Source: Verrucomicrobiales bacterium (GTDB lineage Bacteria; Verrucomicrobiota; Verrucomicrobiia; Limisphaerales; Palsa-1400). Taken from it: a DNA stretch of 12,654 nt. Shown here piece after piece: positions 1 to 10,356 of the stretch. The stretch's first letter is position 1; each line of letters begins with the position of its first letter. The stretch lies in the NCBI GenBank assembly GCA_028293405.1, contig JAQGOW010000385.1:1-12654 (forward strand), written 5' to 3'. Below the pieces are notes generated by a model, which saw only the letters and a program-made list of their open reading frames with translations, had not been told where the DNA came from and did no database searches. The translations under genes were made by a program, and so were the position numbers.

Positions 1-1422
1 CGTCGAACGTTGAAGGAATTCGCTCGATGTAGATTTCCAAACTTCATCGACGTTTCGCGATGTGATCTCGCCCTGCCAAAAGATAGACGGCTTCCATGGA
101 TAATAATTGGGTCGGACCAGCACAGGACCGTCGAAACGGTTGCCATTGATCATCTGTTGCGCACAAGCCTGATCGTTGGCGATGGTGAAGAACTTATCCA
201 CCTTCATCAGCCGCAAAGCCGAACGAACAGCGGAACTGGGCGCGAGCAGGATTATTTTTCGACCGGCAATTCGAGCGTGTCGTTGCAAACGCACGAGCAA
301 GCCCATTCCGGTGCTATCGATGAAACGCACGCGCTGCAAATCGAGCAGACAGGTTTGCGATGAGGCAAGAGCGTTCGCGCAAAGCAAGGAGTATTGCCGC
401 ACCGCATCGGCATCGACGCGTTTCGGGAAGACAATGTGTTGCCATTGTTTTTTGTTCTTCACCGGATTGATCCGTGGCGTGGATCGGCTTGTTACCCCGC
501 GCAATTGCATACGCCACCATTGCAACAGAATCGCCCATGTGAAAATCCACAGGCCGCGCATGTAACGCTTGAATAATCGGCGCGGCTCCTGCGCGAGTCG
601 AAATAACCATTCGGTCCCGGTCCCGCGCATCCATCGCGGGGCGCGCAAAACTTTTCCAGCAAGGAAATCAATCGTCGCACCGACGCCAACCGACACTGGA
701 ACACCAAGATCGCGATAATGCATCGCAATCCACTTTTCCTGTTTGGGACAACCGAAAGAAACGAACAACAGATCAGGTTTGGCTTCGCGGATTTGGCGAC
801 AAATCTCCACGTGATCCATCTCGAACAAGTTCGCAACCGGCGGCGAGAAATGTCCGGCAATAACAACCTGCGGATGTTTCTGTTTGAGATTGGCAACAGC
901 TTGCGCCGCGATCTCTGGCGAGCCACCAAGAAAGAAAATCCGATATTGTTTGCGCACCGCTGTTTCGATCAACAGCGGGACCAGGTCAGAACCGGCGACG
1001 CGTTCGGGCAATGGATTGCCCAACAATCGCGACGCCCAAACCAACGGCATGCCATCGCACAACACCATGTGTGCATCGGTGAGGATCCGATGCAATTCCA
1101 CGTCGTGCAGTGATTGAACAAGGAAATCAACATTGGCCGTGACCAATTGATGCGGCTCACGCGATTCGACCATGTCCTCTATCAACGACACCGTTTGCGC
1201 GGTCGTCACGTTATCGAACGGCACACCAAGTATAACAATCGGCGCGGCCACCAACGGCTTCCCGTCTTCAGAGCTGTTCGGCTGAACTTGCCGTTCCTTC
1301 TCGACGCCCGGCGGAGTCGTGGGCGGCAGCGTGTGGCTGTGATCAGCCGACGGACCGGTGGTGGCATCGCGCAACGCACGGAACGACAATACAGACGGAC
1401 TTGGTTGAATTGCTTTTATCAT
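1..1422 (-). CDS. WecG/TagA/CpsF-family glycosyltransferase fused to a C-terminal STAS domain (3' end beyond window)
   Basis: The frame is open for 474 codons from the ATG at 1422 down to base 1 with no stop, so the C-terminus is outside the window. Residues about 50-290 match the WecG/TagA/CpsF family, which adds a sugar (typically ManNAc or a related sugar) to an undecaprenyl-linked acceptor at the inner membrane face. Visible motifs are TANVDF (95-100), catalytic-type DGMPLVW (from D123), FLGG, and CPKQEKW (225-231). The Arg-rich stretch EPRRLFKRYMRG and hydrophobic WIFTWAILLQWW (about 279-303) resemble the membrane-binding C-terminal appendage of TagA. Residues about 330-415 then form a STAS domain with the anti-sigma-antagonist signature IDSTGMG, whose phosphorylatable serine is S370. 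About 60 further residues have no recognised fold. The start overlaps the methyltransferase stop as ATGA, so translation is probably coupled. The N-terminal 45 residues are Pro/Thr-rich and look disordered. Both domains are clear; the regulatory role is inferred. Confidence 0.9.
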   Translation of the reverse strand, partial: MIKAIQPSPSVLSFRALRDATTGPSADHSHTLPPTTPPGVEKERQVQPNSSEDGKPLVAAPIVILGVPFDNVTTAQTVSLIEDMVESREPHQLVTANVDFLVQSLHDVELHRILTDAHMVLCDGMPLVWASRLLGNPLPERVAGSDLVPLLIETAVRKQYRIFFLGGSPEIAAQAVANLKQKHPQVVIAGHFSPPVANLFEMDHVEICRQIREAKPDLLFVSFGCPKQEKWIAMHYRDLGVPVSVGVGATIDFLAGKVLRAPRWMRGTGTEWLFRLAQEPRRLFKRYMRGLWIFTWAILLQWWRMQLRGVTSRSTPRINPVKNKKQWQHIVFPKRVDADAVRQYSLLCANALASSQTCLLDLQRVRFIDSTGMGLLVRLQRHARIAGRKIILLAPSSAVRSALRLMKVDKFFTIANDQACAQQMINGNRFDGPVLVRPNYYPWKPSIFWQGEITSRNVDEVWKSTSSEFLQRST

Positions 1423-2475: not shown

Positions 2476-3303
2476 TCAGTTGAGGGCAACTTTTCTATCT
2501 GCAACGTCGTTGAACGAGACAACTTTTAGATATTCGCGGCTGGCGAGGTAATCGGCAGTGCGATGGAGCACATCGATGAATGCGTCATCGGCCCGACCGT
2601 CGCGGAAATATTCCCACCAATGCGTCACCAGCACCGTCAGTGTGCGGCTCTCGATGCTGCGTTCGATTTCCTGCAACATTAGACTGTAAGAGCGGTGATA
2701 GGACAAATGGCAGCCGGGATGCGACAGCAATGTCGTGTTGCCGACGCGCCAGTGCGCGGCACCGCTCATTTTTTTAACGGCATATTTGGGCCACCAGGCA
2801 GGAGGAATGCGGCCGAGTTCGAACCAACCAGTCGAAACTACTTCGAATCGTTTCGCCACTTCTTCCATGCTCACGCGCGATAGTTGATCGTAAGGAGCAA
2901 CGAATCCTCGCGGACGTCCCAACCCAGCCTGCTCAAAAAATTTAATCCCATCATCCAGGCGCCTAGCAATTTCTGCGCGGTCGTCATGATCGAACTCATA
3001 ATGGTTGCCCACGAATTCATGACGCGAGCCGTGCTGGACGAAATTGTATTGTGGAAAGCAGCGCAGGTATCGCAGCAACTCGGCATTGGTTCCGATTGGC
3101 ACACAGCCCTTCTCGTTCCCGCGATACGCGATGAGAAATTTTTCCAGGCGACCCGGCGCGTAGCTCGCTTGCGTCGAAACGTTCGGAATGACCGCAAGGT
3201 TCACCGGCAAATTACGTTGGATGAATGGTCGATACAGGCGCTCGAGATATTCGACGGGCATGAGCGCGTTTGTGTCATCGTCACGAATAATCACATATTT
3301 CAT
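2476..3303 (-). CDS. Polysaccharide deacetylase-like (NodB-homology) protein, cytoplasmic
   Basis: 275 residues. The N-terminus MKYVIIRDDDTN carries the NodB-type motif 1 acidic cluster (D8-D10). HGSRHEF gives the metal-binding H91 and H95 (HxxxH, motif 2). APYDQ (136-140) resembles motif 3, and THWWEYF (H228) may supply the late catalytic histidine. The family (CE4-like) uses a divalent metal to remove N- or O-acetyl groups from glycans. There is no signal peptide or membrane segment, so it should act in the cytoplasm on a precursor such as a lipid-linked sugar rather than on exported polymer. The ATG at 3303 has a strong Shine-Dalgarno (GGAGG, 7 bases upstream) and overlaps the stop of the GT4 gene as ATGA. 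The family assignment is good; the substrate is unknown. It might instead be one of the divergent deacetylase-fold proteins without deacetylase activity. Confidence 0.82.
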   Translation of the reverse strand: MKYVIIRDDDTNALMPVEYLERLYRPFIQRNLPVNLAVIPNVSTQASYAPGRLEKFLIAYRGNEKGCVPIGTNAELLRYLRCFPQYNFVQHGSRHEFVGNHYEFDHDDRAEIARRLDDGIKFFEQAGLGRPRGFVAPYDQLSRVSMEEVAKRFEVVSTGWFELGRIPPAWWPKYAVKKMSGAAHWRVGNTTLLSHPGCHLSYHRSYSLMLQEIERSIESRTLTVLVTHWWEYFRDGRADDAFIDVLHRTADYLASREYLKVVSFNDVADRKVALN

Positions 3304-4583
3304 GCGCGCTCCTCCCGAAGCCGTGGCGTCACGCGTGCGCCACGTTTTTGTTCGATTAATTCCTCATACAAATGCTTCACCTGTCCCGCGACGACGACCG
3401 AATCATACTCAGCGCGAACGCGTTCGCGTCCAAGTTGACCCGCGCGTTTCGTCGCTTCCGGTCTCGTCAGCGCCTGATGAAGTGATTCGTGAAAACCGGT
3501 CGGGTCGGAAAGATCAAACAACCAACCGTTCTCGCCGCGTTGAATCAATTCACTCGCACCAGAAGTGCGACTCGAAATCACCGGCGTGCCACAAGCCCAT
3601 GATTCCAAAATGACCAAGCCAAACGGTTCCGAAATCGACGGCAACACCAACGCCACTGCCTGCTGAAATAATCCAATCAATCGCCGATCCTGCGGCGGGA
3701 GTCCGCCAGTCATGATGATATTATTCTGCAACCCAAGCTGCTTGATCTTTGCCTGGATACTCGCGAGATAAGCGTCATCGGTGCTCGCGCCGGCCATGAC
3801 CAAAACAGTGTCGGGATAACGTTGAAAAATGCATGGAGCCTGCTCGACCACCCAACTTTGGTTTTTCACCGTGTCGATGCGTCCCACCATCAACAACACG
3901 CGCTTGCCCACGATACCGGGAAATGCAGCTAACGCATCCGCCCGATGATCGTGCATGTAATCATCCGCTGGAATCCCGTGTGGTTGTACGATCACCCGTT
4001 GGTTCGGATATTTCTCCCTGAGCATTCGCGCTTCATTGCGATTACACGTCAAAATGGCATCCGCTTGCTCAAGCACTTTGCGCGAGCGCAAAAACGCACC
4101 AAAAAATTTTCCCCATTCGTAACCACCACTCAGCGGCTCAGCGAGATGCGCTTTTGCAGTTGCAGGTAAATCAAGCACGCCACCGTGAATGGAAGCAACC
4201 AGCGGAAGATTGCGAGCGCGCGCAATCGTCAGGGCCGTTCCGCCAAGACGATTTTGTGTGTGCGCATGGATCAAATCGATTTTTGGTTCACGCAACAATT
4301 GCCAGATGAGGTCAAACGAAATCAGATTCCCACCCATTGCAATGAGAGCCCGGCGTTGCTCAGCGTCGATCCCCCAAACTGGGACAATTCCGTTGAAGCG
4401 TTTAACGCGATGACCCGCGCCAGCCAACGGATCGCTGCGAACCAGACCCGTAAGCCGCGGCGCATACGCGATACTGGTGACCTCGTGGACGCGCAAGCCG
4501 TCGCAAAGCCGTTTTACCGCTGTTTCCGTTCCGCCCCATTCGCGGGGATCGTATTTTCGCAATACGTGAGCGACTTGCATCAT
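3300..4583 (-). CDS. GT4-family glycosyltransferase
   Basis: 427 residues, a retaining GT-B glycosyltransferase of the GT4 group, expected to transfer a sugar from a nucleotide-sugar donor onto a lipid-linked glycan in the cytoplasm. The acceptor-side domain starts with HVLRKYDPREWGGTETAVKR, which carries the glycine-rich acceptor loop, and has DLIHAHTQNRLGG and SIHGG. The donor-side domain has GRIDTVKNQ (from G234), then the EX7E signature SEPFGLVILE (E319 and E327) and GTPVISSRTSGASELI. The frame could extend to a GTG at 4700, but the extra 39 residues resemble nothing. The ATG at 4583 has GGAAGG 8 bases upstream and begins right at the first beta-strand, so it is preferred. This is the first gene of the minus-strand polysaccharide operon, and the deacetylase start overlaps its stop. 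Donor and acceptor sugars cannot be determined. Confidence 0.93.
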   Translation of the reverse strand: MMQVAHVLRKYDPREWGGTETAVKRLCDGLRVHEVTSIAYAPRLTGLVRSDPLAGAGHRVKRFNGIVPVWGIDAEQRRALIAMGGNLISFDLIWQLLREPKIDLIHAHTQNRLGGTALTIARARNLPLVASIHGGVLDLPATAKAHLAEPLSGGYEWGKFFGAFLRSRKVLEQADAILTCNRNEARMLREKYPNQRVIVQPHGIPADDYMHDHRADALAAFPGIVGKRVLLMVGRIDTVKNQSWVVEQAPCIFQRYPDTVLVMAGASTDDAYLASIQAKIKQLGLQNNIIMTGGLPPQDRRLIGLFQQAVALVLPSISEPFGLVILESWACGTPVISSRTSGASELIQRGENGWLFDLSDPTGFHESLHQALTRPEATKRAGQLGRERVRAEYDSVVVAGQVKHLYEELIEQKRGARVTPRLREERA

Positions 4584-4591
4584 GACAACAA

Positions 4592-4597
4592 CCTTCC
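4592..4597 (-). promoter_or_regulatory. Ribosome binding site deciding the GT4 start
   Basis: On the minus strand GGAAGG lies 8 bases before the ATG at 4583. It supports that start over the upstream in-frame GTG at 4700. Confidence 0.6.
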
Positions 4598-4744
4598 AGA
4601 CCCTAAATCGGGCACCAATGTGTCCATCCATTAAGCGCGTAACGGCGTTCATTGACCATCGGGTCACAGGCTGTTTGTTCGGTGCGTGCATTGCCCCCAC
4701 CCACTCATGCCGACGCTGAACAATGATTCGCAGGTTGCCCCGAT

Positions 4745-4770: not shown

Positions 4771-6198
4771 TTGGACAGTTTGGAAGCTATAGATTTTATC
4801 AAAATTTGTGTTCTGTTCTTCGCCTACTTTGTTTTTGCGCCGCTGCTCGGCGTTGTAATCAAGGGCCGCACGAAGATTCAGGATTGGATTTTCTTCGTCA
4901 TGTGTTTCATGACGATCTCAGGATTTCTCGGACCAGCGGAGTGGGGGCTGACCATTGATTTCCATCCGACTTACCGCGGGACTGCTCGCGGCTACCACTT
5001 CTATTTCAACGAAGCCTTGGCTGGCGCTTTGATTGTCGCAAATTTTCTCGAATCACCCCGCCGCTTCCGCTGGCTGCCGCCGGGACTGATTTTTTACATC
5101 GCTAACATTTGCCTGAGCTTTGTCTCAATCATCAACGCGCCGCATCCCGAATACGTTGTCATGGCCGCTGTGAAGGCATCGGAAGTCATCGTCATTTTTG
5201 TCGCTACTTACAATTATCTGCAAAACACCGAACGCGTTCGCTGGTTCTTAACGACCTTTTGTTTCGTGCTGTTTTGGGAACTGATCGTCTGTTTAAAATT
5301 AAAATACGTCGACCACCTCTACCAGGTGATCGGCACCTTCGAGCATCAAAATCCCCTGTCAATGTATGCAATTCTCATCGGCGTGGTTCTGTTAAGCGCA
5401 GGCGTCGGCCCAAAGCAAAAACGTTCCACACTTTACCTATTGGGATTTTGCGCAGCGGCTTGGATTGTCGAATGCACATTGTCGCGCGGTGGCCTTGTCG
5501 CTTTCGCGATTGGCACACTGGCAGTCATGGGATTGGGGTTACTCGACAAAATCACGATTCGACGTCTTTTGGTGATCGCAGGTTTGGCGGCCATTGTTTG
5601 CGTCGGCATTGCCGCCTCGCTACAGACGATCATCAATCGCTTCAACGACACCTACAACAAAGACAGTTCCGAAACGCGCCGCATGCTCAACATTGCCTCG
5701 CGCGAAATGCTTCGCGATTATCCGCTCGGCGGCGGTTGGAATAATTTCGGCGTGCTCATCAACCCGCCGTATCCCTACGGCAGTCTCATCGACCAATATT
5801 TCAAAGACCACAATGAGTTCAAAGAAGTCGACACCTCCAAAGGAATCGTCGAGAGCCATTATTACCTGCTGCTGTCCGAAACCGGATACCCCGGCTACAT
5901 CAGCTATCTAATTCTCATCGCGTATTTCCTCTACCTCAACGCCCGTGCGGCGCTCTTTTTCCGCAATCACTTTCTCGGCGTGATCAGCGTTGGCATCGGC
6001 ATCGGTTGCTCGTGCAATTATTTACAAAGCCTGCTCGAACGCGTGCTCACGCAGCCACGCAACTTGATGCTGTGGTTGATCCTGCTCGCGCTCACGGCAC
6101 GCATCGAAACCTGGCGCAAACAGGCCAAAGCTCAACGCGCCAAACCTCGCTACGCAGAGCCCGAACGAATCGAAGTCGAAACCGCAGAAGCAGCCTAG
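4771..6198 (+). CDS. O-antigen polymerase/ligase-like (Wzy_C family) membrane protein
   Basis: 475 residues, polytopic, with about ten hydrophobic segments (for example 11-30, 38-54, 105-122, 137-148, 158-175, 196-211, 221-233, 240-258, 265-283, 376-390, 400-415, 432-442). Such proteins use periplasmic undecaprenyl-linked glycans to extend a polymer or ligate it to lipid A or another acceptor. Family signatures are HQNPLSMYA (192-200), the SRGGL turn (238-242), GGGWNNF (320-326) and ESHYYLLLSETGYPG (361-375) in the large periplasmic loop. The C-terminal tail from about 446 is charged and cytoplasmic. The frame has no early ATG and a stop at 4756-4758. The start is therefore TTG at 4771 or TTG at 4780, both with weak ribosome sites, so the exact start is uncertain. 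It diverges from the glycosyltransferase operon. Polymerase versus ligase cannot be separated by sequence alone. Confidence 0.87.
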   Translation: MDSLEAIDFIKICVLFFAYFVFAPLLGVVIKGRTKIQDWIFFVMCFMTISGFLGPAEWGLTIDFHPTYRGTARGYHFYFNEALAGALIVANFLESPRRFRWLPPGLIFYIANICLSFVSIINAPHPEYVVMAAVKASEVIVIFVATYNYLQNTERVRWFLTTFCFVLFWELIVCLKLKYVDHLYQVIGTFEHQNPLSMYAILIGVVLLSAGVGPKQKRSTLYLLGFCAAAWIVECTLSRGGLVAFAIGTLAVMGLGLLDKITIRRLLVIAGLAAIVCVGIAASLQTIINRFNDTYNKDSSETRRMLNIASREMLRDYPLGGGWNNFGVLINPPYPYGSLIDQYFKDHNEFKEVDTSKGIVESHYYLLLSETGYPGYISYLILIAYFLYLNARAALFFRNHFLGVISVGIGIGCSCNYLQSLLERVLTQPRNLMLWLILLALTARIETWRKQAKAQRAKPRYAEPERIEVETAEAA

Positions 6199-6645: not shown

Positions 6646-7491
6646 GTGCCCGAACTGTATTCAGACGCCACCCTTGTTATTGTTGGTCACGGCTCCACCG
6701 TGAACGCCGGATCGGCAGCACCCGTCCATCAGCATGTCGAAGAGTTACGCCGCCGCAAAATCTTCGCGCAAGTTGCCCCTGCGTTGTGGAAAGAAGAGCC
6801 GTTCGTCGATGCCGTCGTCAATCGGATTACCGCTCCGCGCGTCTTTGTTGTTCCGCTCCTCATCAGCGAAGGTTACTTCAGCGAAGAAGCCATTCCTGAA
6901 AAACTCGGCTTGCGACAAAAAGGACAAACAGATTTCAACCGCGTCCAAAAACGCGGCGCACAAACTTTATATTACTGTCGCCCGATCGGCACGGACGAGA
7001 GCATGACCAACGCCCTACTCGGCCGAGCGAAGGAAATCGTCGAACAATTCCCCTTCCCTCGCGCGCCGAAACCGAAGGACACGTCCCTGTTCATCGCCGG
7101 CCATGGCACAACCGCCAACGACAACTCGCGAAAAGCCATTGATCGTCAGGTCGAGTTGATTGCAGCCATGAACATCTACAACGACGTTCATCCTATCTTC
7201 ATCGAAGAAGACCCGCGCATAGCCGACTGCTACATGCTCGCCGCAAAAAAGAACATCATCGTCGTCCCCTTTTTCATCAGCGACGGCATGCACACCGTCG
7301 AAGACATCCCTGAAATGTTGGGCGAACCAAAACGCCTCGTGCAGGAGCGGCTCAAAACCGGGCAACCGACTTGGCGCAACCCATCCGAAAAAAAAGGAAA
7401 GATGGTTTGGTATACCCGAGCTGTCGGCACCGAGCCGCACATTGCAGACGTGATTCTCGAGCGAGTGCTCGAAGCCAGTAAACAGTTGTAA
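6646..7491 (+). CDS. Tandem-domain CbiX/SirB-type sirohydrochlorin chelatase
   Basis: 281 residues made of two CbiX repeats (about 5-130 and 144-275). The family inserts Co or Fe into sirohydrochlorin for cobalamin or siroheme synthesis in the cytoplasm. Repeat 1 has VGHGST with H15, repeat 2 has AGHGTT with H153. The second typical metal ligand lies in the conserved [I]SxGxH..(D)IPE motif. Repeat 2 keeps it (ISDGMHTVEDIPE, H216), but repeat 1 reads ISEGYFSEEAIPE, with F78 at the histidine position. Repeat 2 is therefore the likelier catalytic half, with repeat 1 degenerate or structural. Both repeats end in a similar Y-x-R-x-(V/I)-G-T segment, CRPIGTDE and TRAVGTEP. The start is GTG at 6646, 5 bases after the Fe-S carrier stop, with no clear Shine-Dalgarno, so coupling is likely. 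The metal (Fe or Co) is not determinable; no other tetrapyrrole gene is in the window. Confidence 0.88.
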   Translation: MPELYSDATLVIVGHGSTVNAGSAAPVHQHVEELRRRKIFAQVAPALWKEEPFVDAVVNRITAPRVFVVPLLISEGYFSEEAIPEKLGLRQKGQTDFNRVQKRGAQTLYYCRPIGTDESMTNALLGRAKEIVEQFPFPRAPKPKDTSLFIAGHGTTANDNSRKAIDRQVELIAAMNIYNDVHPIFIEEDPRIADCYMLAAKKNIIVVPFFISDGMHTVEDIPEMLGEPKRLVQERLKTGQPTWRNPSEKKGKMVWYTRAVGTEPHIADVILERVLEASKQL

Positions 7492-7529: not shown

Positions 7530-9116
7530 ATGAAAGCGTTCCTGATACTTGCGGCCATTTGCATCGTTGCACTGGTCCGTCCTTATTTTGGCCAGCGCTT
7601 TTTTGAAACGGTTGAAGCTCGCTGCGCACGTTTTGCAAACAGCCGTTGGGCCACGTTGTGGATCGGTCTCGCGATATTTATATTCAGCATCGCGCTCACC
7701 TCGATCTATCGCCTGCCCCAACCACGCATCCACGACGAGTTCAGCTACCTCTTACAATCCGACACCTTCGCGCACGGCCACCTCGCCAATCCAACTCACC
7801 CGCTCTGGCGTTATTTCGAAACGTTTCACGTTTTGCAACAACCGACCTACGCCTCCAAATATCAACCCGGCCAAGGCTTATTCCTCGCACTCGGCCAAAT
7901 CATTTGTAACCCAATCCTCGGCGCCTGGATCTCTACGGCCCTCGCGATCGCTGCGTTGTTCTGGATGTTACGCGCACTATTCGCACCGGGCTGGGCGCTC
8001 GCCGGTGCAGCGCTTGCCGCGCTAAACGCTCAAGTGCTCTGGTGGAATTGGAGTTTTTGGGGCGGCTGCGTGCCTATGTTCGGCGGCGCACTCGTGCTCG
8101 GCGGAATGTTTCGCACGCTCAAAAACATCACACCGACCGCCAGCATCGCCATCGGCGTCGGCGCTGGATTGCTCGCCGTCACAAGACCATTCGAAGGCGC
8201 GGCGCTCTGTGCCGTCGCCGGCGTCGTTTGTCTTTGGTCATTCTGGAAAACTGCCAGGCTCAACGCCCTCATCCGTTTCGCCGCTCCGGTTTTAATCGGC
8301 GCAATCCCCTTCATCACTTTCGATCTAATATATAATGAGCGCGTCACCGGCCACCCGCTCAAGCCTCCCTACGCCGTCTACGAAAAAACCTACAGCCGCA
8401 ATGCCCTCTTCATCTGGCAAGCCGATCCTCAGAACGATCGCAATCATCGCGCGGAAATCAATGGCTTCTACGACGACGAAAAGCGCGACGCCAACATGCA
8501 ACGCTCGTTCAGTGGATTTATCCGCGGCCTCTGGCCAAAACTAAAATTATACGACCGCTATTTTCTCCATGGCTTGCTTGCGTTGATGCTCATCCCCGCG
8601 TCGTTCCTTTGGCGCACTCGGCCGTTGCGCATTTGCCTATTCATGTTCATCGCGCTCGTCACCCTCACGCTGTGCAGCTCCTTCTGGGCCCAACCCCACT
8701 ACTCCGCACCGATCCTTCCGTTATTTATCGCACTCGTCCTTTTCGGATTCACTCAACTCCACACAATCGAGCGCACCCGCCTGCTCGCTCGCATGTTATT
8801 CATCGGTTTGTGTCTGCTCGGCTTAACAATGTTCACCACGCGTTTGTGGAAAGACCAAAACACCCAGTGGCAATACAAACGCGCCGACATGATCGCGGCG
8901 CTCAACAAATTGCCCAACAAACAACTCGTGCTCATTCACTACGCGCCGAAGCACAACCCAAAAACCGAATGGATCTATAACCGCGCCGACATCGATGCCG
9001 CGCACGTCGTGTTTGCGCCGGACGGCGATGCAGAGTATTTGAAACCTTTGCTATCGTATTTTAAAGGCTACGACGTGAGTCACATCGAGCCCGACCGGCC
9101 CATGTGGGGCGATTAA
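7530..9116 (+). CDS. Polytopic membrane protein, probable GT-C-type glycosyltransferase (ArnT/PMT-like)
   Basis: 528 residues with about 9-11 membrane segments (for example 3-17, 43-60, 131-150, 154-168, 178-196, 206-232, 251-266, 346-361, 367-384, 392-409, 421-436). After the first segments comes IHDEFSYLL with D69/E70, the acidic pair expected in the first extracytoplasmic loop of GT-C enzymes. It is followed by a typical YASKYQPGQGLFLALG segment (107-122). These enzymes use polyprenyl-phosphate sugars to glycosylate lipids, glycans or proteins outside the inner membrane. A soluble C-terminal domain of about 85 residues (444-528) includes WIYNRADIDAAHVVFA and a final EPD, a module I recall at the end of uncharacterised GT39-like proteins. 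The ATG at 7530 follows the heptamer repeat, with only AGAG as a possible ribosome site. rsmI starts 2 bases after its stop. The GT-C call is inference; substrate and activity are unknown. Confidence 0.72.
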   Translation: MKAFLILAAICIVALVRPYFGQRFFETVEARCARFANSRWATLWIGLAIFIFSIALTSIYRLPQPRIHDEFSYLLQSDTFAHGHLANPTHPLWRYFETFHVLQQPTYASKYQPGQGLFLALGQIICNPILGAWISTALAIAALFWMLRALFAPGWALAGAALAALNAQVLWWNWSFWGGCVPMFGGALVLGGMFRTLKNITPTASIAIGVGAGLLAVTRPFEGAALCAVAGVVCLWSFWKTARLNALIRFAAPVLIGAIPFITFDLIYNERVTGHPLKPPYAVYEKTYSRNALFIWQADPQNDRNHRAEINGFYDDEKRDANMQRSFSGFIRGLWPKLKLYDRYFLHGLLALMLIPASFLWRTRPLRICLFMFIALVTLTLCSSFWAQPHYSAPILPLFIALVLFGFTQLHTIERTRLLARMLFIGLCLLGLTMFTTRLWKDQNTQWQYKRADMIAALNKLPNKQLVLIHYAPKHNPKTEWIYNRADIDAAHVVFAPDGDAEYLKPLLSYFKGYDVSHIEPDRPMWGD

Positions 9117-9957: not shown

Positions 9958-10356
9958 ATGCCTGCTAAACTATTCGTCGGAAACCTCACCTTCACCGCAA
10001 CTGAAAACGACCTGCAAGATCATTTCGCGCAAGCCGGCGTCGTGGTGTCTGTTAACATAATGCAAGATCGCATGACTGGCCGCTCCCGCGGTTTTGCATT
10101 CATCGAAATGGCGTCTCAAGAAGATGCCGAAAAGGCCGTCCAAATGTTCCACTCCAAGGACTTCCAAGGCCGTGCTCTGACGGTTAACGAAGCCCGTCCC
10201 CGTGAAGATCGCCCAAGTGGCGGCGGCGGTGGTGGTGGTGGTTACCGTGGTGGTGGCGGCGGCGGCGGTGGTGGCGGTGGCTATCGCGGCGGTGGCGGCG
10301 GCGGCGGCGACCGTGGAGAGCGTCGCGGCGGTGGCGGCGGTGGATACCGCGGCTAA
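9958..10356 (+). CDS. RRM RNA-binding protein with glycine-rich C-terminal tail
   Basis: 132 residues. Residues 3-80 form a single RNA recognition motif with RNP2 LFVGNL (5-10) and RNP1 RGFAFIEM (44-51), including the aromatic positions that stack on RNA bases. Residues 87-132 are a low-complexity tail of Gly runs broken by YRG, DRG and ERR, resembling RGG boxes. This architecture is known from bacterial and cyanobacterial Rbp proteins and plant GRPs, often cold-induced and involved in mRNA binding. The role here is inferred. The tail is encoded almost only by GGC/GGT codons, so length variation by slippage is likely. The ATG at 9958 has only a weak GAAG nearby. A strong intrinsic terminator follows 25 bases after the stop, so this is probably a single-gene transcript. 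Confidence 0.95.
   Translation: MPAKLFVGNLTFTATENDLQDHFAQAGVVVSVNIMQDRMTGRSRGFAFIEMASQEDAEKAVQMFHSKDFQGRALTVNEARPREDRPSGGGGGGGGYRGGGGGGGGGGGYRGGGGGGGDRGERRGGGGGGYRG

Follow-up and report, generated by a model that had tools for sequence, protein, structure and literature searches.

A glycosyltransferase of the WecG/TagA/CpsF family that ends in two STAS domains was identified in Verrucomicrobiota and Chloroflexota, and in both phyla such fusions were found next to genes for STAS proteins, RsbW-type kinases and PP2C phosphatases. This WecG-STAS-STAS architecture and its recurring neighbourhood of kinase, PP2C and sugar-transferase genes seem to be new. We give an even chance to the reading that the enzyme is itself the output of a partner switch, in which the kinase and the phosphatase would act on the STAS tail and thereby control glycan assembly. 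This estimate rests mainly on the gene orders in the Chloroflexota and at the loci L094 and L098.

The gene and its missing end

The window, a stretch of 12,654 nucleotides, corresponds to the complete contig C664 from a draft genome (G000; 3.85 Mb in 684 contigs, 67% complete). On its minus strand a single ATG-started open frame of 474 amino acids runs from base 1422 to base 1 with its 3' end open. The gene leaves the contig at this point, so that the coordinates describe only its visible part. The main features of the protein and of the genes next to it are the following.

1261 to 1422, minus strand: N-terminal extension (residues 1-54), predicted to be disordered and poorly conserved in the 120-protein alignment
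562 to 1074, minus strand: WecG/TagA/CpsF glycosyltransferase domain (Pfam core residues 117-287; structural domain about residues 60-278)
502 to 612, minus strand: C-terminal appendage (E271-W272...R275 and a long helix, residues 280-307, with R282 and R286)
145 to 459, minus strand: STAS domain 1 (STAS1, about residues 322-426), of the anti-sigma-factor-antagonist type
313 to 315, minus strand: codon of S370, the SpoIIAA-type phospho-acceptor position (IDSTG)
1 to 123, minus strand: first part of STAS domain 2 (STAS2, residues 434-474), interrupted by the contig end
1419 to 2522, minus strand: SAM methyltransferase, upstream (Methyltransf_11, E 6e-18); its stop overlaps the start of the fusion
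2476 to 3303, minus strand: DUF2334 gene (Pfam PF10096, E 1.6e-10)
3300 to 4700, minus strand: GT4-type glycosyltransferase, first gene of the minus-strand cluster (Glycos_transf_1, E 2.6e-34)
4771 to 6198, plus strand: O-antigen ligase/polymerase-like membrane protein (Wzy_C; PF04932, E 1.4e-9), divergent from the cluster

The initial annotation had described an uninterrupted frame that joins a WecG enzyme to a STAS domain, and this was borne out by Pfam matches above the respective cut-offs to Glyco_tran_WecG (residues 117-287, E 6e-64), STAS_2 (residues 332-409, E 3e-11) and STAS (residues 353-417, E 2e-9). The appendage-like helix that it had noticed was recovered as a 28-residue helix at 278-305 in the predicted model of the relative P0004, corresponding to 280-307 in the window protein, and the acceptor serine was placed correctly, as IDSTGMG begins at residue 368 and its Ser is S370. 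The STAS fold, for which structure modelling had been advised, is supported by the predicted folds together with Pfam. Residues 1-52 of the P0004 model have a pLDDT below 50.

The fusion closes a series of four minus-strand genes with overlapping ends (GT4-type, DUF2334, SAM methyltransferase, fusion), in which we take the DUF2334 product to be polysaccharide-deacetylase-like. The Wzy_C-type neighbour belongs to a BLAST cluster (cluster 7) that is also represented near the fusions in L012, L013, L024 and L026. Further along the window lie a protein with two CbiX matches that adjoins an Fe-S biosynthesis gene (6646-7491), a 528-aa protein that looks membrane glycosyltransferase-like by eye and has no Pfam match at E 0.001 (7530-9116), and an RRM RNA-binding protein with a long glycine-rich tail (9958-10356). 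At other loci (L005, L009-L011, L016, L020-L023 and L025) large NRPS- or PKS-like genes were seen by eye upstream of the fusion on the opposite strand. A second WecG match in the genome of the window (G000:C590:7368-7862) lies within a 270-aa open frame.

About 60 residues behind STAS1 had originally been considered unexplained. They constitute the first half of a second STAS domain; a new domain in the C-terminal tail was ruled out, as the tail aligns as half a STAS with the relatives and with the P0004 model. The guess that more sequence lies past the edge proved right: most full-length proteins in the list of 120 have 485-540 aa, their second STAS follows where the window protein stops, and Pfam finds two STAS stretches in each of P0002, P0004 and P0020. 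Moreover, another contig of the same genome, C232, opens in frame with the expected second STAS half (TRDRRCYIDLSGLQFIDTAGAG...), followed by a stop and a GT4 gene. In the relative L003 the fusion is likewise followed by a GT4 gene, giving the gene order of C664 plus C232. The two contig ends have 4 nt in common by eye (GACG), and a scripted test found no overlap of at least 10 nt between them. The search for the missing 3' end, suggested at the outset, thus yielded a matching second half, whereas the joining of the contigs is something we infer: C232 would carry the end of the fusion, and the joined protein would have 539 aa. The STAS2 acceptor position is Thr (IDTAG) both on C232 and in the nearest relatives.

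Spread of the architecture and conservation of its sites

A protein search in which 8,000 candidates were scored gave 4,646 relatives at E 1e-3, of which 120, including the window protein, were listed. The search for the two-domain architecture (PF03808 plus PF01740) that had been proposed turned out clearly positive, with PF03808 plus PF01740/PF13466 in all 120 listed proteins. In two of these (P0054 and P0056, 763 and 762 aa) an extra WecG-like region precedes the WecG-STAS-STAS part; in P0054 Pfam recognizes WecG twice and STAS twice, and P0056 was judged by sequence similarity.

The genome scan matched 32 loci, among which 25 are from Verrucomicrobiota (L003-L027) and two from Chloroflexota (L028, L029). 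In three Acidobacteria loci (L030-L032) the WecG protein carries a single, degenerate STAS without the Asp-Ser site, and the STAS region of L032 was not detected with a purpose-built HMM. The matches at L033 and L034 are WecG-only, ending before the STAS region, and these two were excluded from the scans of 30 genomes described below. GT4-fused versions at L012, L016 and L025 were recognized on reading as wrong-frame extensions by the ORF caller and discarded; the true fusion frame was later recovered for L016 and L025, not for L012. Within a phylum-wide sample of 387 genomes, a match at E 1e-60 was obtained in 82. In 34 of these it extends into STAS1, to at least position 356 of the 492-position profile (four of these rows contain in-frame stops); the best matches of the remaining 48 stop short of this, resembling plain WecG proteins.

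That the window is the contig end of a fragmented MAG might suggest two separate genes fused by an indel or by mis-assembly. Since both domains occur in all 120 listed proteins, one of which (P0004) is encoded on a 6.03-Mb contig, and the L003 copy has an identical gene order, we rejected this explanation on the evidence of the homologues and regard its probability as close to nil.

Membership of family GT26 follows from the PF03808 cut-off, which was passed, and from the TagA fold of the predicted model. T95 and D123, the equivalents of Thr37 and Asp65 of TagA, are invariant in all 120 listed relatives, as are E271, W272, R275 and R282 of the appendage, while R286 is present in 118; the equivalence of the appendage arginines to those of TagA was assigned by position and not from a solved structure. 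The fusion enzyme is likely to transfer an early sugar in the building of a cell-surface polysaccharide. TagA is reported to require its C-terminal appendage for activity, and it was proposed that only membrane-bound monomers are active, with the appendage providing an active-site Arg, and that dimers bury the site (PMC6493773). In the fusion, the STAS tail starts directly past the appendage region.

STAS1 combines a STAS fold with an Asp-Ser acceptor, as in the anti-sigma factor antagonists. It matches these at E 1e-12 and is antagonist-like in sequence as well as in fold. As the truncated window protein scored below the cut-offs of TIGR00377 (36.8 versus 53.45 bits) and TIGR02886 (25 versus 114.75 bits), STAS1 was not assigned as SpoIIAA or RsbV. 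STAS2 is nearest to MlaB and to the STAS domains of SulP proteins, the SulP-type matches being weak, and in the clade of the window this MlaB/SulP-like domain has Asp-Thr. The likeness to MlaB is a fold resemblance of STAS2 only; the truncated window protein stayed below the NCBIfam mlaB equivalog cut-off (23.7 versus 90 bits), with the match lying in STAS1. The Foldseek/VIA table was computed on the whole model and tests chiefly WecG and STAS1.

The acceptor of STAS1 is Asp-Ser in 119 and Asp-Thr in one of the 120 listed proteins (window included), and that of STAS2 is Asp-Ser in 107, Asp-Thr in 12 and missing in one, the window protein itself. In a 66-row alignment the Asp-Ser pair of STAS1 is invariant. 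At the level of loci, 44 of 48 distinct fusions (a set that omits L006, L007 and L012, where the fusion frame was lost in ORF calling) keep Asp-Ser/Thr in at least one STAS domain, and which one varies by clade: both sites are intact in 22, that of STAS2 alone in 17, that of STAS1 alone in five (three of which have no aligned STAS2 motif) and neither in four, namely L112 and three Acidobacteria. Such retention of different sites in different clades, with hardly any loss of both, is easier to reconcile with an acceptor in use than with a relic, although a Ser or Thr there is widespread among STAS domains.

Kinase and PP2C genes near the fusions

Both Chloroflexota loci (L028, L029) show the series fusion, NTP-transferase/LbH/Bac_transf, lone STAS, SpoIIE PP2C and HATPase_c_2 kinase, the last being 143-156 aa long. 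The module of L028 also holds a second enzyme-like STAS fusion, a PHP-domain protein with a C-terminal STAS (L028:5619-6728). In Verrucomicrobiota kinase and PP2C are often united in a single protein some 600 aa long (HATPase_c_2-GAF-SpoIIE in L048 and L094). Directly past the fusion of L094 there is a STAS gene on the opposite strand with a kinase-PP2C gene, and in L098 the fusion, an LbH protein, a STAS and a REC-PP2C-kinase protein are all encoded on one strand. Both activities of the bifunctional proteins look intact to judge from the alignment, because the N-box (E69, N72, N73) of the kinase and the metal-site Asp of the PP2C domain are invariant in 11 of 11 aligned proteins. In SypE, N52 is required for inhibition.

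Twenty of 30 fusion-carrying genomes were picked for an already known kinase-PP2C match. A lone STAS gene lies within 300 bp of the kinase-PP2C gene in 18 of them, and a sugar-phosphate transferase plus an LbH protein within about 6-6.5 kb in 14; two of the six genomes without a nearby sugar-phosphate transferase have less than 3 kb of upstream sequence. The cluster of sugar-phosphate transferase, LbH protein, lone STAS and kinase-PP2C recurs in Verrucomicrobiota (L043-L062, L133, L137, L138), also in three genomes in which no WecG-STAS match was found (G040, G253, G369). In one copy of the module an inserted ECF-sigma-like ORF with an apparent anti-sigma gene was seen by eye (L044:5732-6909).

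With purpose-built HMMs, a kinase domain was found in the fetched stretch of 12 of 37 distinct fusion loci (L019, L026/L113, L028, L029, L094, L097, L098, L107, L112, L115, L116 and L118) and not in that of the other 25, some of which are cut by contig ends. The set is enriched for linked loci, as L112 and L113-L118 were fetched for a known module on the contig, and the HMMs, which also served for the 20 genomes above, derive from these very loci, which makes their E-values there non-independent; the kinase near the fusion was checked with Pfam in L028, L029, L094 and L098. At L112 the module lies 2.4 kb away, yet both STAS domains lack Asp-Ser.

Regarding the window itself, Pfam found neither a kinase nor a PP2C domain among the 13 gene products scanned. 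In the 67% complete genome G000 there was no SpoIIE match, no kinase-PP2C gene was recovered, and HATPase_c_2 matches occurred only within frames of 268-1036 aa. In the family of the window (six genomes), both genes are present in a relative of the same genus and absent from four genomes, while G000 has just the fusion. The suggestion that an RsbW-like kinase or a PP2C gene would be found nearby therefore failed for the contig of the window and held for some of the relatives.

In the 387-genome sample, 34 genomes have the fusion match, 18 have a listed kinase-PP2C match extending into the kinase part, and five have both. The two genes share a contig in four of these five (G170, G343, G273 and G078, at 0.8, 2.4, 4.7 and 21 kb), the exception being G344. 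The combined p of 3e-8 for the four linked genomes is descriptive only: it omits G344, assumes uniform placement and ignores the clustering of EPS genes. An earlier count of seven in eight (combined p 4e-11) was rejected as biased, because the kinase domains of G069, G188 and G202 had been checked owing to the shared contig; in these three the genes lie 14-31 kb apart, and initially only partial kinase-PP2C matches were found. A REC-PP2C-kinase variant near the fusion, seen on reading in G339 and G251 (Pfam-checked in G251 only), was not counted. Thirteen of the 18 genomes with a kinase-reaching match gave no fusion match, an absence that is soft as at most four candidates per genome were scored. 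Of 21 fusion genomes from the genome scan for which a kinase-PP2C gene is known, five carry it on the contig of the fusion, at a distance of about 6-23 kb. In the other 16 it is not on that contig, and ten of these 16 fusion contigs are shorter than 20 kb.

SpoIIE and HATPase_c_2 matches are present in 30 of 30 fusion-carrying genomes, but also in 5 and 12, respectively, of 14 control genomes, and HATPase_c_2 matches are unspecific. A mirror-tree test corrected for WecG by a quadratic term, with GT4 as negative control, gave no signal between STAS1 and the kinase (partial r -0.20 versus 0.38 for the GT4 control, n=14), and positive values obtained earlier without a control (n=18) were set aside after it. 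For STAS2 and PP2C the values were 0.74 versus 0.15 for GT4, from too few related genomes to be used as evidence. Module and fusion may adjoin simply as both are polysaccharide genes. Partner-switch control of EPS synthesis, as first put forward for this gene, is indirectly favoured by the fusions of two phyla that adjoin STAS, RsbW-type kinase and PP2C genes, and disfavoured by the contents of the window and by the coevolution test.

Readings of the STAS tail and relation to known systems

In the partner-switch reading, the fusion would be a peripheral-membrane enzyme of the WecG/TagA family that places an early sugar onto the undecaprenyl-linked precursor of a surface polysaccharide, and the two-STAS C-terminal tail would turn the enzyme itself into the output of the circuit. 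An RsbW-type Ser kinase would bind and phosphorylate the tail, chiefly at S370 in STAS1 and also at the equivalent Ser/Thr of STAS2, a PP2C phosphatase would undo this, and the lone STAS protein, made together with the kinase, would compete for the latter. The tail starts just past the appendage helix, which supplies the last part of the active site in TagA; a protein docked or a phosphate added at this point would therefore switch glycan assembly with no need for transcription. The same helix governs the change from inactive dimer to membrane-bound monomer in TagA; we infer this step for the fusion, and likewise the acting kinase and the occurrence and sign of the phosphorylation. More tentatively, and at somewhat less than an even chance, the kinase/PP2C pair, the lone STAS and the WecG-STAS-STAS enzyme, whose genes accompany that of the initiating sugar-phosphate transferase, may together form a post-translational valve on lipid-linked glycan assembly in Verrucomicrobiota and Chloroflexota, which predicts that the target of a SypA-type STAS protein is an early enzyme of lipid-linked glycan assembly.

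The main rival is that the tail serves as a constitutive docking or scaffold element, like MlaB for MlaF, with no kinase acting on it, and that its partner is the neighbouring sugar-phosphate transferase, another glycosyltransferase or the enzyme itself. The affinity of STAS2 to MlaB and SulP domains agrees with this, as do the 25 of 37 loci without a kinase domain nearby, and the Acidobacteria, with one fused STAS lacking an acceptor site, and L112, with two, indicate that a tail can be retained without phosphorylation. In addition, MlaB directly binds and stabilizes its enzyme partner, its phosphorylation reportedly not yet having been shown (PMC7367683). We nevertheless consider docking alone rather unlikely in view of the antagonist-like match of STAS1 and the repeated placement by STAS, kinase and PP2C genes in two phyla; the acceptor Asp-Ser/Thr in 44 of 48 locus fusions points the same way, though Ser/Thr is common at this position in STAS domains generally, MlaB included (PMC7367683).

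Information might also flow in the reverse direction, the enzyme-tethered STAS antagonist capturing the kinase depending on the state or location of the enzyme and so reporting glycan assembly to a sigma factor or another regulator. The antagonist character of STAS1, the SpoIIE and HATPase_c_2 matches in all 30 fusion-carrying genomes searched and the 16 of 21 genomes with the known kinase-PP2C gene off the contig of the fusion would suit such a role. It appears improbable, however, since a sigma-factor-like ORF was seen in only one of seven loci read gene by gene (L044, by eye, with an apparent anti-sigma gene of its own) and since the STAS protein is reported to be the downstream partner in SypA/SypE. 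Finally, the STAS domains could be allosteric regulators of the enzyme that bind a small ligand such as a nucleotide, a sugar-nucleotide or a lipid. Ligand-binding allostery has been proposed for some SulP STAS domains, STAS domains exist outside partner switching and STAS2 has weak SulP-type matches, but the invariant Asp-Ser pair of STAS1 argues against this and nothing came up that points to a ligand site, which makes it the least probable of these alternatives, with a very small chance of being right.

The widespread fusion of STAS domains to an early glycan enzyme, with kinase and phosphatase genes adjoining in several lineages, names a concrete and testable class of targets. If the partner-switch reading is true, partner switching controls enzymes directly and not sigma factors alone, EPS output in these bacteria has a fast post-translational valve, and the fusion is a 'Rosetta stone' for the target of SypA-type STAS proteins. 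Among the hits listed by literature searches, with subscription papers mostly outside the coverage, no paper dealt with a WecG-STAS protein. The initial remark that no characterised example is known holds to that extent, but a STAS-glycosyltransferase is in print (all4160, see below), and NCBI names some relatives 'Anti-sigma-factor antagonist and glycosyl transferase'.

Among the closest known systems, TagA/TarA (GT26, WecB/TagA/CpsF family; structures 5wb4, 5wfg, 7mpk and 7n41), ends after the appendage, whereas the fusion has two STAS domains behind it. With the SpoIIAA/RsbV-SpoIIAB/RsbW-SpoIIE/RsbU systems the fusion shares the fold and acceptor motif of STAS1 and, in some loci, the kinase and phosphatase families; the canonical switch has a sigma factor as its output, whereas the STAS domains of the fusion are part of an enzyme. 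MlaB-MlaF resembles the fusion in that a STAS sits directly on an enzyme partner, the STAS2 of the fusion being MlaB-like, but MlaB is encoded apart from its partner, an ABC ATPase, and is reportedly not shown to be phosphorylated (PMC7367683). In Anabaena, all4160 is a glycosyltransferase with an N-terminal STAS (PMC8256260), on which, among other genes, the synthesis of the heterocyst envelope polysaccharide depends (PMC4390870). It is thus also a STAS fused to a glycosyltransferase for an envelope polysaccharide, with the STAS at the opposite end from that of the fusion and no partner kinase mentioned in these accounts.

SypA/SypE of Vibrio fischeri, a STAS protein and a kinase-REC-PP2C protein encoded in the syp polysaccharide locus, are a functional analogue and are reported to show that a STAS/kinase/PP2C switch can control a polysaccharide biofilm below transcription. 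By description, this system and ours have in common a STAS with a DS acceptor, a bifunctional HATPase_c_2/PP2C protein and surrounding polysaccharide genes, and L098 even unites REC, PP2C and kinase in one protein as SypE does. The domain orders differ from that of SypE, being kinase-GAF-PP2C in L048 and L094 and REC-PP2C-kinase in L098. Moreover, SypA is a lone STAS, for which the published account names no target, whereas the STAS domains of the fusion are covalently part of a glycosyltransferase.
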